Below are positions 1 through 5,816 of a DNA stretch of 5,949 bases, piece by piece. Every line of letters starts with the position of its first letter. Position 1 is the stretch's first letter. The stretch is taken from contig JAUQQQ010000020.1 of assembly GCA_030549815.1 (NCBI GenBank), positions 1-5,949 of the forward strand, in the 5' to 3' direction. Below the pieces are notes generated by a model. The model ran no database searches and was not told where the DNA came from. It saw only the letters and a program-made list of their open reading frames with translations. The DNA is from a bacterium (GTDB taxonomy: Bacteria > DRYD01). The position numbers were made by a program, and so were the translations under genes.

Positions 1-192
1 TTATAGGTAGACTGAAAATCCGTTCCTTCTAATTTACCCTTTCTATTAAAGATATTGGACAAAATATAGGGGGTATCCTTCTTTTTTTTGAGGAAAATTT
101 CTGTCGATGTCCGGTAGGTAAAAAAATAGGTCAAAAATGCCAAAAAACGATACTTTTTCCTAATAGTATCAATATCCCGTCGATCCCATTTT

Positions 193-233
193 CTATATAA
201 AAAAATTTAAATCTGTCAATATTTTTTATATAG
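193..233. repeat. AT-only inverted repeat
   Basis: The left arm CTATATAAAAAAAT (193-206) pairs with the right arm ATTTTTTATATAG (221-233) around a 14-nt loop, with one extra A in the left arm. The only G:C pair is at the base of the stem. It could be a hairpin in RNA from either strand or a cruciform. It is not a standard terminator because the stem has no GC-rich part. Confidence 0.55.
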
Positions 234-239
234 TTAATC

Positions 240-255
240 ATTGATAACAATCAAT
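240..255. repeat. Dyad ATTGAT-AACA-ATCAAT (copy 1)
   Basis: Six-base perfect dyad with a 4-nt centre. The same arms recur at 356-371 with a different centre (TTAT), 116 bp away. This could be a paired protein-binding site or two small RNA hairpins. No promoter that would settle the matter is visible beside it. Confidence 0.45.
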
Positions 256-335
256 AAAATTGAATTTAACAAATTTTTAACAAAAACGATAGTGTCTAAA
301 CAAGTATTATCAAGCGTTCGTCGATGTGGTCTTTT

Positions 336-391
336 TCGAAAATTTGTTTCAAAAAATTGATTTATATCAATAATAAAATCAAATTTTTCGA
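336..391. repeat. Nested inverted repeat around dyad copy 2
   Basis: Outer arms TCGAAAATTTG (336-346) and CAAATTTTTCGA (380-391) pair with one bulged base and enclose the dyad ATTGAT-TTAT-ATCAAT (356-371). GGTC at 328-331 and GACC at 390-393 could add a short outer clamp. On the plus strand the structure is followed by CTCTTTTTT (394-400 region), so it could end a plus-strand transcript. On the minus strand the same bases compete with the long-range stem of the candidate RNA at 120-394. Confidence 0.45.
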
Positions 392-523
392 CCTCTTTTT
401 TACAATTTTTTTACAATTACTCACAGCATAAGAATTTTTACAACCAATATTTTTACGATTCCCTACTACTTCAAAATAGGAAAATTTGGGATAGAATCCA
501 AAGAAAATTTCATAAAGTTCTAT

Positions 524-542
524 CATAAAACTGTCTTTTATG
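524..542. repeat. Inverted repeat CATAAAA-CTGTC-TTTTATG
   Basis: A perfect 7-bp stem with a 5-nt loop, 45 nt beyond the stop codon of the MscS gene. It is AT-rich and not followed by a U tract on the minus strand, so it is a weak candidate for an RNA 3'-end structure of that gene and not a convincing terminator. Confidence 0.4.
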
Positions 543-586
543 TCATTAAAATTAAAAACAAACCAAAAAGCAAATAATTTAGAAAT

Positions 587-1660
587 TTACTTTACACAAT
601 TATCTTTTTTGATACATATAGTTTGAAAAGGCATTTCAATACCTTCTTCATCATATCTTTTTTTTAGTTTTTTTATGAACTCATGAGTAAGGACAAAATG
701 TGCTCCTTCGGAAATATCTAAAACTCTCATTATTACGTTAAAATTAATAGAAGAATCCGTAAATTGTTTATACCTAATAAATGGTTCAAAATCGGGGTCT
801 GCTCCTTGCACACTTTTTTGAACCTCTTTAGCAACCTCAATAGTAACTTGTTCAACTTTTTCCAAGTCACAAGAATAACTGACACCAACAGGAATAACAA
901 TTGTCATCGGAGAAGTTGGTTTATGATAATTTGTAATAATAGATCCAACAATTTTAGAATTAGGTATAATAACTCTGTTATTATCTCTCATCAAGAGAGT
1001 AGTACTAAACCAAGTTATATCCTCAACAAAACCTTCAAATTGATTATCAACTTTTATATAATCTCCTTTCTCAAATATTTTTGAAAATAATATATTTATA
1101 CCAGAAAAAAGGTTTGATAGTATTCCTTGAAGTGCTAATGATACAGCGAGGCCACCAACACCTAAAGTAGTAAGCACAGGAGCCATTGGAACACCCATAT
1201 ACCATAAAGCAGTAATAACACCAATGAGGATTAAAATAATTCTTATTAAATTATAAAAAATCTCTACATTAGGCAAAGGAGCATCTACCCTATCAACACT
1301 TCCTTTAATAATATGAATAATAACCGCCGAAACAAAAGCAAATAAACTAACGATAAAAACGAAAACGATTAACTTGTCAATTTTTTCGAAAATAAAAAAT
1401 AATTGTGCAAGAAACTTTTGATTTACATCAGAAAAAGATAGCCAAACTTTTATGATTTCTATTAAAACAAATAAAAACAAAAGAAATATCCAAATAAGCG
1501 AATTTATTTTAAATGAATTAATTAATACTCCATCATTAAAAACTTTTTTTAGAATGGAAACAATAATAGACCTTAAAACCCACCCTATAGGAATAATCAA
1601 AACAGAAATAAACAAATGAAACCAAATATTCTTCATATTTATAAAATACTGGAAAATCAA
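587..1660 (-). CDS. MscS-family mechanosensitive ion channel
   Basis: A 357-residue membrane protein, a small-conductance mechanosensitive channel homologue expected to open under membrane tension and release solutes during osmotic downshock. Hydrophobic segments lie at about 12-38, 55-75, 96-119 and 138-156. The Gly/Ala-rich pore helix (about 157-190) contains TTLGVGGLAVSLALQG. A beta domain follows with FEKGDYIKV (196-204), the G-F-V-E-D-I segment (210-215) and RVIIPNSKI (229-237), all hallmarks of the family. The C-terminal alpha/beta region ends near EMPFQT (342-347). Three or so helices before the core make it a five-helix type, similar in size to E. coli YnaI. The start is TTG, because AGGT sits 6 nt upstream; the ATG at codon 9 (1636) has no such site. 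It begins 22 nt after the Ro60-like gene, so co-transcription is likely. Confidence 0.93.
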   Translation of the reverse strand: MIFQYFINMKNIWFHLFISVLIIPIGWVLRSIIVSILKKVFNDGVLINSFKINSLIWIFLLFLFVLIEIIKVWLSFSDVNQKFLAQLFFIFEKIDKLIVFVFIVSLFAFVSAVIIHIIKGSVDRVDAPLPNVEIFYNLIRIILILIGVITALWYMGVPMAPVLTTLGVGGLAVSLALQGILSNLFSGINILFSKIFEKGDYIKVDNQFEGFVEDITWFSTTLLMRDNNRVIIPNSKIVGSIITNYHKPTSPMTIVIPVGVSYSCDLEKVEQVTIEVAKEVQKSVQGADPDFEPFIRYKQFTDSSINFNVIMRVLDISEGAHFVLTHEFIKKLKKRYDEEGIEMPFQTICIKKDNCVK

Positions 1661-1682: not shown

Positions 1683-4514
1683 CTATTTAAAAAATTCATT
1701 TATTATTTCTAGGACTAAGTGATTAAAAGGAGAATGAAAATCAATTAACTTTTCCGATACCTCATATAATCTATAGTTAGCGAAGTTTAATTCATTTAAT
1801 TTTAATTCGTTAGTTAAAGTATAAGATATGATTTTATATTTCCGAGAGCTCATTTTTTTCAAAACCTTAATAAAAGAATAGATAATTTGAGAATAATTAT
1901 TAATAAGCAAACCATCGTTATAGTTTACAATCAGCAATCTGTTGGAATAATTTTGAATATTTTCTAAAATACTTCCAAAGCTGTACTCAAAGGAATTGAA
2001 ATCTACAGATCTTTTTGCTTCTACTAAAAAACTAAAAGTCTTTAACATCTTATCTATTGGATTATCGTTTTTAGTTAAATTGATATAGAAGTTGGTATAA
2101 TCTTTAAATTTATCTCCGACAATAGCCAGCTTATAATTTGGGTAGAGTGATGTTAATATGGATACAGCCTTTGCCAAATTTAATAATAAGTTAGTATCAA
2201 AATCTCCTTTGTAATCAATATTTATAAAAATTGAAATCTCCTGTTTTCTTTGATTCTTATTTAAGTATGTTTGAATTGTTTCATTCAGTAATTCTTTGAT
2301 TTCTTTAATATTTTTTAGTATTTTAAACTCAACTTGATGCGAATTTAAATTAGTATAAGAGAAATCAGCCATTTTTTCAAGTTCCAATATCAATTCAATT
2401 ACAAAAGATAATTTCTCTATGTTATCAAAATTGCTTGGACCTGTTAAATTAAGAAAATATTCATTAACAACGTTGTTAACGAGTTTATCAACGATGATAG
2501 AGATAACGACATCTTGGCTTAAATTTTTTAATCCAAATTTTTCTTTTAAATTCTCCATTTCATTCATTTCCATTTTTCTAATTACCTTTATTGCTTCTCT
2601 TGTATTTACAGAAAAAATAGGTATATAAAAATCGAGAATATTAATAAATCTTTGTAGATTTTCCATATTTTTACTTACATCTCTTAATTTTTCTTTAATA
2701 TTATTAGCAACAGTATTATTTTCAAAATTGATTTTATGAAGGTTTTTAAGTAAAGCTTGTATTGGAATATTTTTTATACTTTGAATTAAAAATTCATTTT
2801 TTAAAAGCATAGGAACATATTCTTTTTCATTAAGCTTAGAAAATTTTGTATTTAGTATAATACTTGAATAAAGAATAGAGATCTTATAATCTTTTGGTTT
2901 TGGATGCAAAATTTTTATTAAATCTTTCAATTTTATAGATCTTTTACTCAGTTTATTTTTCTTTAAAGTAATAAAATCATAATTTTCAAGTATTTTCTTT
3001 AAATTCTTTTTTATAAATTTAGGAAGTTTTTTTATAGAGGGAATGTAATTTAGATTTATTTTATGCAGGTATTGCCAACTGATAATCATTTCAACCATCC
3101 TTGTTGGGGTATTTATATTTCTAATATTGATAATTCTTTTTAGAATCCCCTTTAAGTATTCATTTTTTTCTTTTTGATACAAATAAATCAAATATCCTAA
3201 GACCAACATAGGAACAGCTTTTCTTCCCTTATTAATTATTTGGTAAAATAAAAATACCACTAAAACTACCTTTTTTTCAAAAGATAATTCTAAATTATCT
3301 TCTGAAAAAATTAAATCTAAGTAGTGAATTAAAAGATCAATTTGAGATACTACCTTTTTATTAATCTGCCATCTTACTCGTTTATCTCGTATATCAAAAG
3401 AAGACAAATTATAGAATGAAATTAGCAAATTCATTATTTTTTCATTAAATACAGGCAAAGTAGAGTTATTTAATTCATTAATACTTTCCTTATCAAGTAG
3501 ATTAACATTTTCAGCTTGTTTCATATTAACACCAACATTTTCAGCCGATTTGATATTAACATCTGGAGGTTCATCCTGGGTAAGATAATCAATTAATAAT
3601 TTAGTTGAACCATTTTCAAAGTAATAAAAAATTAGAGAAGAGATCGTAATTGTTGAAAAGAAAAATATTCTTAAATCCATCTGACAAAAATAAGAAAAAA
3701 GTATGGAAATCAAATATATGAAAGAAACTTTGAAAAAGCTTTCCATTAACTTTTTAATAAATTCTTCGAAATTCCCTTTTTCTTGATCATTAATTACTTT
3801 AGATTTAGTAAAAAACACAACAGCATTTAATATCAATGAACACAAAAATATAATTAAAGCAAAGTTTAAGTAATTAATGTAGTTATAATTAACCAATTCC
3901 GAAATCTTTTCAGGGAAAAGAAACGATAGAAAACCTTTAAATATAACAAACAACAAGTTCATGATAAACAAAATCATGAAAGTATTAGTGATATAATAAA
4001 GTATCCTTTTAAAAGTGAAGAAGTATTTAATCTTTTTAATATCTAATTCAAGCTCATTAGGTTTAAAGGATAATTTGGATAATTCCTGAATTTTGTTCTG
4101 AATTTTACCTTTCATTCCGAAAAAAACAAATAAAGAAAAAATTATTAAGAAAGAATAAAATAGTTTATCTAAAGTTGGCAAACTATACAAAAATGATATA
4201 AAATTGACAACAAAGAAGCCCAAAATAATAAAAATGAAAAACTTCAGGAAAACAATAAAACTTTTGATAGATATCTTAAAAAAATTTCCCCAATTCATGT
4301 CTTGATTAGTATTTGTAGCAATACAATATAAAGGAACACCTAAGGATAAGAAAATAGTTAGTCCTTGTAAAACGTTAACAAATTTATAATTTACAAAGAT
4401 ATAGTCCAAAGTTGTTACCCCTAAAATTCCAAGAAATACAAAGAAAACAAAATAAATGATTAAAAACAATATGCCATTTAAGAATAGGTATAAATTATTA
4501 AACAATTTTACCAT
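1683..4514 (-). CDS. Membrane-anchored Ro60-like protein (TROVE and vWA-like domains)
   Basis: 943 residues. The first 300 hold about eight membrane helices (roughly 8-33, 45-67, 83-108, 116-133, 170-199, 212-235, 262-278, 283-299). A polar linker (312-350) carries a tandem 10-residue repeat. Residues about 355-640 match the HEAT-like TROVE ring of Ro60/Rsr: INKGRKAVP (427-435), LKRIINIRNINTPTRM (458-473), KLKDLIKILHPKP (528-540, the family's 'DLLRLAHPKP' signature), EYVPML (565-570) and KNIPIQALLKNLHKI (581-595, the 'mPltALiRNLgkm' signature). Residues about 757-943 look like the vWA half, but the MIDAS DxSxS is DYKGD (767-771), so metal binding is doubtful. Ro60 proteins bind Y RNAs and ends of misfolded RNA; the cytoplasmic part here probably binds RNA at the membrane. 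Start ATG has a strong ribosome site. The family call is by motif recall, not a search; the membrane domain is unrecognised. Confidence 0.82.
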   Translation of the reverse strand: MVKLFNNLYLFLNGILFLIIYFVFFVFLGILGVTTLDYIFVNYKFVNVLQGLTIFLSLGVPLYCIATNTNQDMNWGNFFKISIKSFIVFLKFFIFIILGFFVVNFISFLYSLPTLDKLFYSFLIIFSLFVFFGMKGKIQNKIQELSKLSFKPNELELDIKKIKYFFTFKRILYYITNTFMILFIMNLLFVIFKGFLSFLFPEKISELVNYNYINYLNFALIIFLCSLILNAVVFFTKSKVINDQEKGNFEEFIKKLMESFFKVSFIYLISILFSYFCQMDLRIFFFSTITISSLIFYYFENGSTKLLIDYLTQDEPPDVNIKSAENVGVNMKQAENVNLLDKESINELNNSTLPVFNEKIMNLLISFYNLSSFDIRDKRVRWQINKKVVSQIDLLIHYLDLIFSEDNLELSFEKKVVLVVFLFYQIINKGRKAVPMLVLGYLIYLYQKEKNEYLKGILKRIINIRNINTPTRMVEMIISWQYLHKINLNYIPSIKKLPKFIKKNLKKILENYDFITLKKNKLSKRSIKLKDLIKILHPKPKDYKISILYSSIILNTKFSKLNEKEYVPMLLKNEFLIQSIKNIPIQALLKNLHKINFENNTVANNIKEKLRDVSKNMENLQRFINILDFYIPIFSVNTREAIKVIRKMEMNEMENLKEKFGLKNLSQDVVISIIVDKLVNNVVNEYFLNLTGPSNFDNIEKLSFVIELILELEKMADFSYTNLNSHQVEFKILKNIKEIKELLNETIQTYLNKNQRKQEISIFINIDYKGDFDTNLLLNLAKAVSILTSLYPNYKLAIVGDKFKDYTNFYINLTKNDNPIDKMLKTFSFLVEAKRSVDFNSFEYSFGSILENIQNYSNRLLIVNYNDGLLINNYSQIIYSFIKVLKKMSSRKYKIISYTLTNELKLNELNFANYRLYEVSEKLIDFHSPFNHLVLEIINEFFK
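3501..3560 (-). repeat. Tandem 30-bp repeat encoding two 10-residue units
   Basis: Two adjacent 30-bp units encode VNIKSAENVG (residues 319-328) and VNMKQAENVN (329-338) of the Ro60-like protein. They share AACATTTTCAGC and ATTAAC blocks at a 30-bp period (3504/3534 and 3525/3555 on the plus strand). The repeat lies in the flexible linker between the membrane helices and the TROVE domain. It keeps the frame, so copy number could change linker length without disrupting the protein. Confidence 0.8.
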
Positions 4515-4552: not shown

Positions 4553-5029
4553 TTATAAAAAATCTCCCTTAATCAAGTCCTTAATCCAACAAATAAAGAC
4601 ACTCAACAATGGGATAAATAAGATAACAAAAATCGGTAAGAAAAAGAAAGGTACAAATGATAATAACCCTCCAATTGTCCATCTTTCTTCATATTTTTTT
4701 ACGAAAAAGAAAAAAAACCATATAAAAAATACTAACATAAATACAACAAGGAAATAGTTAAAAGTTAGGTTTGAAGCAAAGTTTACAACAGTATCTCCTT
4801 TCCAATCACTATATCCAAAAAAATAAAGCAATTTAATTAAGAAAAGTTTATGTATATTGAAAGAAAAAAATCCTACCAATAACCATAATTGAAGAAAACA
4901 TATAAAAATTTCAAATTTACTTACCTGCTGGAGTCCCGCATTATTTTGCCCTTTCTCGTAGCAACTGTTGATTTTTGTATTCTTATTCTCATAAATTTCA
5001 TTTTCAATAATTTTAATTAAATTTGACAT
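4553..5029 (-). CDS. Small membrane protein with conserved MSN-IIENEIY N-terminus
   Basis: 158 residues, function not recognised. An N-terminal peptide MSNLIKIIENEIYE (1-14) could form an amphipathic helix. A polar stretch (15-38) follows, then hydrophobic segments at about 39-57, 61-72, 90-110 and 119-147. A charged loop KKYEERW (111-117) stands between the last two. The gene at 5249-5809 has the same N-terminus and a similar last pair of helices split by RDHKDKW, so the two are divergent paralogues. A longer frame would start at GTG 5038, but that GTG lies inside the ribosome site AGGGAGGTG, so ATG 5029 is the start. It ends 38 nt before the Ro60-like gene and probably shares its transcript. 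It may be a membrane partner of the Ro60-like protein; that rests on position only. Confidence 0.8.
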   Translation of the reverse strand: MSNLIKIIENEIYENKNTKINSCYEKGQNNAGLQQVSKFEIFICFLQLWLLVGFFSFNIHKLFLIKLLYFFGYSDWKGDTVVNFASNLTFNYFLVVFMLVFFIWFFFFFVKKYEERWTIGGLLSFVPFFFLPIFVILFIPLLSVFICWIKDLIKGDFL

Positions 5030-5035
5030 AATCAA

Positions 5036-5044
5036 CACCTCCCT
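5036..5044 (-). promoter_or_regulatory. Ribosome binding site that fixes the start of the 158-residue gene
   Basis: AGGGAGGTG on the minus strand, 6 nt before ATG 5029. The last three bases (GTG, 5038-5036) are in frame and could be mistaken for a start codon, but they belong to the ribosome site. Confidence 0.8.
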
Positions 5045-5123: not shown

Positions 5124-5155
5124 AAAATAAAAATTAAAGGGAGAAAAAACCCTTT
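5124..5155 (-). terminator. Short terminator- or attenuator-like hairpin between the two paralogues
   Basis: On the minus strand AAAGGG (5155-5150), an 8-nt loop and CCCTTT (5141-5136) form a 6-bp stem followed by AATTTTTATTTT (5135-5124). The stem is short, so termination may be partial. Just upstream, TTCCTGT (minus 5188-5182 arm) can pair with ACAGGAA (minus 5160-5154). This second hairpin shares two bases with the first, so the two compete at their junction. Partial termination here would lower expression of the Ro60-like part of the operon relative to the upstream gene. Confidence 0.4.
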
Positions 5156-5248: not shown

Positions 5249-5809
5249 TTAAGTTTTACCTATTCGCCTTCCAATTTTTAAAATCATTTTATAAAAGACC
5301 ACGAAAATAAATAGAGTCAAGAATAGGTAAAAAAATGAAGGTAAAGACCAAACAATTAACAAAACAACCCACTTTATCCATTTATCTTTATGATCTCTGA
5401 TGCTATAGTAAAAAAACCATCCCAGAATACCAAACAACCATACAAAAAATGGTATAACAAAAGCTAAGTATAGAGAAAATATCTCAGGATTTACCAAATT
5501 ACCAAAAAAAGAAAAAACAAAAGAATATATTAACCTGTATTGAATATTAATACCAAAGATATTAAAAAAAAGTAGTAACAGAAGAATGTATGAAAAACCC
5601 AAAGTTCCAAAAATAAAACCAAAGAAATATAAAAACCCTATTGCTATTTTCCTCAAAAGAAAAAAAAATGTATTCTCAAACGTCTCAGACGATAACAAAA
5701 TATTTTCATCATTCCGATAAAAATTTTTAGAAATTTCTTTATTAACTTCTTCTTCAGTTTTTTCTTTTTGATAAATCTCATTTTCAATAATTCTGACAAA
5801 ATTTGACAT
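5249..5809 (-). CDS. Small membrane protein, paralogue with MSN-IIENEIY N-terminus
   Basis: 186 residues, function not recognised. It starts MSNFVRIIENEIYQ (1-14), then a charged, Glu/Lys-rich segment (15-47) that could be a short helix or coiled coil in the cytoplasm. Hydrophobic stretches follow at about 54-84, 92-102, 110-136 and 144-174, and the end is basic (KIGRRIGK). The last two helices are separated by RDHKDKW (138-144), matching KKYEERW in the paralogue. The start is ATG 5809, 7 nt after AGGGGGTG; an in-frame TTG at 5815 sits too close to that site. An upstream frame stops 16 nt before this ATG, so it is probably internal to an operon. The N-terminal helix may be a targeting or docking tag. 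Confidence 0.8.
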   Translation of the reverse strand: MSNFVRIIENEIYQKEKTEEEVNKEISKNFYRNDENILLSSETFENTFFFLLRKIAIGFLYFFGFIFGTLGFSYILLLLLFFNIFGINIQYRLIYSFVFSFFGNLVNPEIFSLYLAFVIPFFVWLFGILGWFFYYSIRDHKDKWIKWVVLLIVWSLPSFFYLFLTLFIFVVFYKMILKIGRRIGKT

Positions 5810-5816
5810 ATTCAAA

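Follow-up and report, generated by a model that had tools for sequence, protein, structure and literature searches.

Work on Ro60 and the other TROVE proteins has treated them as soluble rings with Y RNAs and misfolded RNAs as ligands, in bacteria alongside exonucleases, and the locus analyzed here raises the question of whether such a ring can also be built into a membrane protein. The window, that is, the whole of a 5,949-base contig from a metagenome-assembled genome of 1.6 Mb in 23 contigs, holds an open reading frame of 943 amino acids that the earlier note had read as a polytopic membrane domain followed by a TROVE domain with a vWA-like end. The frame and its coordinates were borne out, since it is intact and has orthologues in two related metagenome-assembled genomes, and the architecture was recovered in part: a polytopic membrane domain is fused to a TROVE-type ring in three genomes, but the vWA part could not be shown. 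Judged from its sequence, the protein is most aptly called a strongly diverged TROVE homologue with a membrane anchor, a new form of a known ring (Table 1).

Table 1. Features of the 5,949-base window; residue numbers refer to the 943-amino-acid protein.
Feature	Position in window	Strand	Basis
Small membrane protein, N-terminal MSNFVRIIENEIY motif	5249..5815	-	ORF list, sequence
Terminator-like hairpin between the two small membrane-protein genes	5136..5155	-	consensus match only
Small membrane protein, N-terminal MSNLIKIIENEIY motif	4553..5038	-	ORF list; comparable upstream genes in L003/L004
943-aa ORF encoding a membrane domain, a TROVE-like ring, and a C-terminal alpha/beta-like region	1683..4514	-	single open frame; orthologues L002/L004, L003
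Polytopic membrane domain with about 8 helices, residues 1-300	3615..4514	-	hydropathy; loop charges
Acidic linker, residues 301-371, with near-repeat NIKSAENVGVNMKQAENVN	3402..3614	-	sequence; poorly conserved in orthologues
Putative diverged TROVE ring, residues 372-757	2244..3401	-	hhalign versus controls; rank 1/440 as single sequence; aided model
GRKAVPMLVLGYL, residues 430-442, at the place of TROVE GRAPKNDPALFALA	3189..3227	-	alignments; start invariant in orthologues
DLIKILHPKP, residues 531-540, TROVE D-L-x-x-x-x-HPK motif	2895..2924	-	His537 aligns with human Ro60 His187
IPIQALLKNLHKI, residues 583-595, TROVE MPxxALxRNLxKM motif	2730..2768	-	motif comparison, alignments
C-terminal region of strands and helices, residues 759-943, in the place held by vWA in Ro60	1686..2240	-	low-confidence models; vWA profile comparison negative
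MscS-type mechanosensitive channel, downstream neighbor	587..1660	-	PF00924, E 4.5e-19; position kept in L003, L004

A search for the same fusion elsewhere, as the earlier note had proposed, returned no near-full-length relatives outside isolate SKW172 (L002/L004) and isolate SKYB53 (L003, which carries the label Endomicrobia); in these, identity is 37-39%, and the gene order is common to all three genomes: small membrane genes (N-terminal MSxMIDxxxxE), the large TROVE fusion, and then MscS. That a membrane-protein gene was wrongly joined to a TROVE-like gene during assembly is extremely improbable, and this chimera was rejected because, although these genomes were assembled from metagenomes and the window is an entire contig, independent orthologues in two other assemblies keep the same continuous frame and the same neighbors at this degree of divergence. 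No relative of the fusion was found in the other searched genomes of the same group, several of which are incomplete, and no additional member was found in viral contigs (IMG/VR), in phage and plasmid records, or in a family-profile search of 386 genomes, which missed known TROVE proteins as well and whose rows at E values of 0.004 to 0.16 resembled chance matches. MscS homologues in the sister genus and family lie in other gene contexts, with no TROVE-like gene adjoining. As far as seen, the membrane-anchored TROVE family is confined to one small group of uncultured bacteria.

The TROVE character of the soluble part escapes family models. The 943-amino-acid ORF matched nothing in Pfam or NCBIfam, and PF05731 was absent even at an E value of 10 and in the genome search; because the ring lies below the Pfam gathering cut-off, we file it as a diverged TROVE homologue and not as a Pfam member. 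In a phmmer search against the PDB, the best match (E value of 0.32, nonsignificant) was the TROVE protein of Thermus phage phiLo (9kop, 9l5y), aligned at the HPKP motif; this protein is soluble, of about 500 amino acids, and, unlike the window protein, without a membrane domain. Plain hmmsearch with a TROVE ring profile against the proteins of the genome ranked the window protein second of 441, at an E value of 0.067 that lies inside the background, and because this search fails to separate it from the rest of the genome, the TROVE claim rests on profile-profile comparison together with motifs.

For the profiles, TROVE proteins were gathered from genomes, phages, and viral contigs, and the comparison was controlled with shuffled profiles, with same-genome proteins (a null set from about 690 kb of the window's own genome, taken as loci), and with a three-sequence MscS family. 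In hhalign, the family ring scored 41.6 against the TROVE ring (P value of 7e-5; shuffled TROVE profile maximum, 22.4), 45.7 against a wider TROVE set, and 43.3 against a diverged bacterial TROVE subgroup alone, with P values across the TROVE sets of 4e-5 to 8e-5, a genome null maximum of 27.9, and scores of 13-17 for the MscS family; the aligned columns are collinear on both sides of HPKP. As a single sequence, the soluble part of the window protein came out on top of 440 proteins with either of two TROVE profiles, scoring 31.9 (null maximum, 27.2) and 32.1 (null maximum, 27.9). The diverged subgroup (L009, L096-L099, L103), whose open frames of 531-672 amino acids are without a multi-helix membrane domain, aligned over about 300 ring columns that include the region ahead of HPKP. 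Five of its members (L096, L097, L098, L099, and L103) reach the Pfam model mainly via the segment of the RNL motif and give the longest alignment with the membrane family. The TROVE identity claimed at the outset was thus upheld by profile-profile comparison, above three kinds of control, but not by Pfam, NCBIfam, or plain hmmsearch, and these scores support residues ~372-757 as a strongly diverged, distant TROVE homologue that is not a clear Ro60/Rsr ortholog.

The signatures named in the earlier note, KGRKAVP (429-435), DLIKILHPKP (531-540), and IPIQALLKNLHKI (583-595), are present and stand in TROVE order. The ordered pair D-L-x-x-x-x-HPK and [ML]PxxALxRNLxKM was found in all three family members and in none of 440 same-genome proteins; in the two orthologues HPK reads RPK, and the second motif takes the near-canonical TROVE form LPLQALMRNLSKI.

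Structure prediction returned all-helical repeats for the ring, in low-confidence models of which the aided one is partly circular. An AlphaFold model made without TROVE rows (three rows) reached a mean pLDDT of 49 and was uninformative with respect to the structural check proposed earlier: its top Foldseek matches were unrelated helical proteins, and the TROVE structure 9kop came 21st (Z score of 8.2 over 140 residues) amid many helical repeats. The aided model used an alignment that included viral TROVE proteins as rows restricted to the ring, because full-length TROVE rows put the vWA region out of register. With a mean pLDDT of 52 (mostly 65-91 for window residues 392-511), it retrieved as its top four Foldseek matches Ro60 (2i91), the phiLo TROVE protein 9l5y (twice), and 9kop, at E values of 0.009-0.027, and in VIA-align 9kop was its best match, with a Z score of 11.4 over 165 residues and the first unrelated chain at 8.5. 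Because TROVE rows were part of the alignment, which makes the result partly circular, this low-confidence match counts as supporting only. Together with the lack of any family-model match and the hmmsearch rank inside the background, the unaided model, in which TROVE ranked only 21st among many helical repeats, fits the reading that the soluble portion is some other helical repeat, HEAT-like or not, that is unrelated to TROVE and resembles it by chance or convergence. However, profile-profile scores roughly double the best shuffled score, with collinear alignment across some 150-300 columns, the first rank among 440 proteins, and the motif pair in TROVE order speak against such a repeat, which we regard as improbable.

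Beyond the ring, both low-confidence models show strands alternating with helices from about residue 727-760 onward. The vWA-like end proposed for this region found no sequence match, with a score of 9.9 against TROVE vWA domains and a shuffled maximum of 17.0. The vWA MIDAS motif, DxSxS...T...D (PMC11277228), is absent, as the window has DYKGD, and the relatives DLSDV, at the expected first strand. Neither the profile comparison nor the motif supports the vWA claim, but the region may be a MIDAS-less vWA-like fold. Ro60 from animals and Rsr from Deinococcus radiodurans (2nvo) resemble the window protein in the two signature motifs in order and in a ring followed by an alpha/beta region. In contrast to the 943-amino-acid window protein, they are soluble, have about 535 amino acids and a MIDAS-bearing vWA domain, and lack the membrane domain of 6-8 helices of the window family; their motifs are about 80 residues apart instead of 52, and the window family carries extra sequence ahead of the C-terminal domain.

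Hydropathy agrees with the roughly eight membrane helices that had been proposed for residues 1-300 and gives about six in the orthologues, where the first hairpin is missing. The loops on one side are basic, foremost loop 4 with 9 K/R, and by helix counting the ring falls on this same side, which we infer from the positive-inside rule to be cytoplasmic; the segment past the last helix is acidic, which slightly weakens this placement. The near-repeat NIKSAENVGVNMKQAENVN occupies ORF residues 318-338 (about window positions 3501-3563), between the membrane domain and the ring. Searches with PF05731 in spread genomes and two large groups gave about 80 genomes with TROVE matches, in which the longest TROVE frame has 672 amino acids and none comes near 943. 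Similarly, none of 44 TROVE proteins analyzed has a multi-helix membrane domain (top 19-residue hydropathy of 1.8 versus 3.0 in the window), and the literature joining TROVE domain, transmembrane, and Ro60, within partial coverage, concerned other subjects only. Among the proteins examined, a membrane domain on a Ro60-like protein therefore appears peculiar to the window family.

The surroundings of the gene suggest that the small gene at 4553-5038, the TROVE fusion, and MscS form one transcript, because a terminator-like hairpin lies upstream of the small gene and the gaps between the three are 38 and 22 bases long. The MscS channel, the membrane protein adjoining the fusion in three genomes, belongs to a separate family, and no similarity was found between the two. 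The small membrane proteins (window 4553-5038 and 5249-5815; L003:303-1484; L004:8012-9114) share the N-terminal motif MS[NRK][MLF][IV]xxxExE, followed by variable linkers and then 2-4 hydrophobic segments; each genome has 1-3 copies upstream of the fusion, and they match no known family. On the 3' side of MscS, window positions 1-586 (~580 bases) are without a long ORF. A folding scan of the gaps in the window gave a single weak A+T-rich candidate, a hairpin region at 151-250 on the plus strand (fold z of -3.9) that is probably a simple palindrome and has no Rfam match. An Rfam search of the window up to an E value of 1 returned no RNA family and no Y RNA match.

With regard to RNA binding, conservation in the family peaks at the two TROVE signatures, which include a lysine-rich run in the segment of RNA contact. 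Within this run, the positions of Ro60 Lys170 and Arg174, which we take to be RNA contacts, are occupied by Asn or Ala and by Lys, respectively. The window's genome encodes PNPase, which is near-universal in bacteria and is the exonuclease that works with Rsr in other species. His187 of human Ro60 (chain numbering; the His of LSHLKP), which is needed for Y RNA binding (PMC11277228), aligns with His537 in the window protein and with Arg in both orthologues. RNA binding by the ring is plausible on these alignments, not predicted residue by residue.

As a whole, we favor by a little better than even chance the explanation that the polytopic N-terminal domain would hold the diverged TROVE ring at the cytoplasmic face of the inner membrane. 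The ring would still bind the ends of structured or damaged RNA, like other TROVE proteins, so that RNA quality control or a bound noncoding RNA would be concentrated at the membrane, and it would probably form a complex with the coencoded small membrane proteins and perhaps MscS. Counted in its favor are the TROVE profile match, the motif pair, the aided model, the helices in three orthologues, the basic loops, the conserved operon-like order, PNPase (near-universal as it is), and the correspondence of His537 to Ro60 His187; counted against it are the missing Pfam match, hmmsearch inside the background, mean pLDDT values of 49-52 with the better model being the aided one, Arg at the His187 position in orthologues, the absent MIDAS, and the negative Y RNA search of the window. 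A fair rival, possible but on the doubtful side, is that a ring of TROVE descent has lost RNA binding and serves as a scaffold or regulator of a membrane cluster, e.g., of MscS or the small membrane proteins. Strong divergence, the absence of MIDAS, Arg in place of His187 in the relatives, and the constant MscS and small-membrane-gene neighbors would all suit a scaffold, but the stretches that the family conserves best are precisely the TROVE signatures, with the lysine-rich run at the RNA-contact segment. By analogy with known TROVE proteins, membrane-tethered RNA binding would be the likeliest role. It is tempting to speculate further that the tethered TROVE ring forms an inner-membrane station for RNA quality control or for docking of noncoding RNA, which, together with MscS and a set of small membrane proteins, couples envelope or osmotic stress to RNA processing, an extension that we hold to be unlikely.

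These results show that TROVE homologues exist beneath the detection limit of current family models. If true, a natural and conserved membrane-tethered version would mean that a TROVE ring can be anchored to the inner membrane, and the membrane-anchored family would offer a defined setting in which to ask whether RNA surveillance in bacteria is organized in space.
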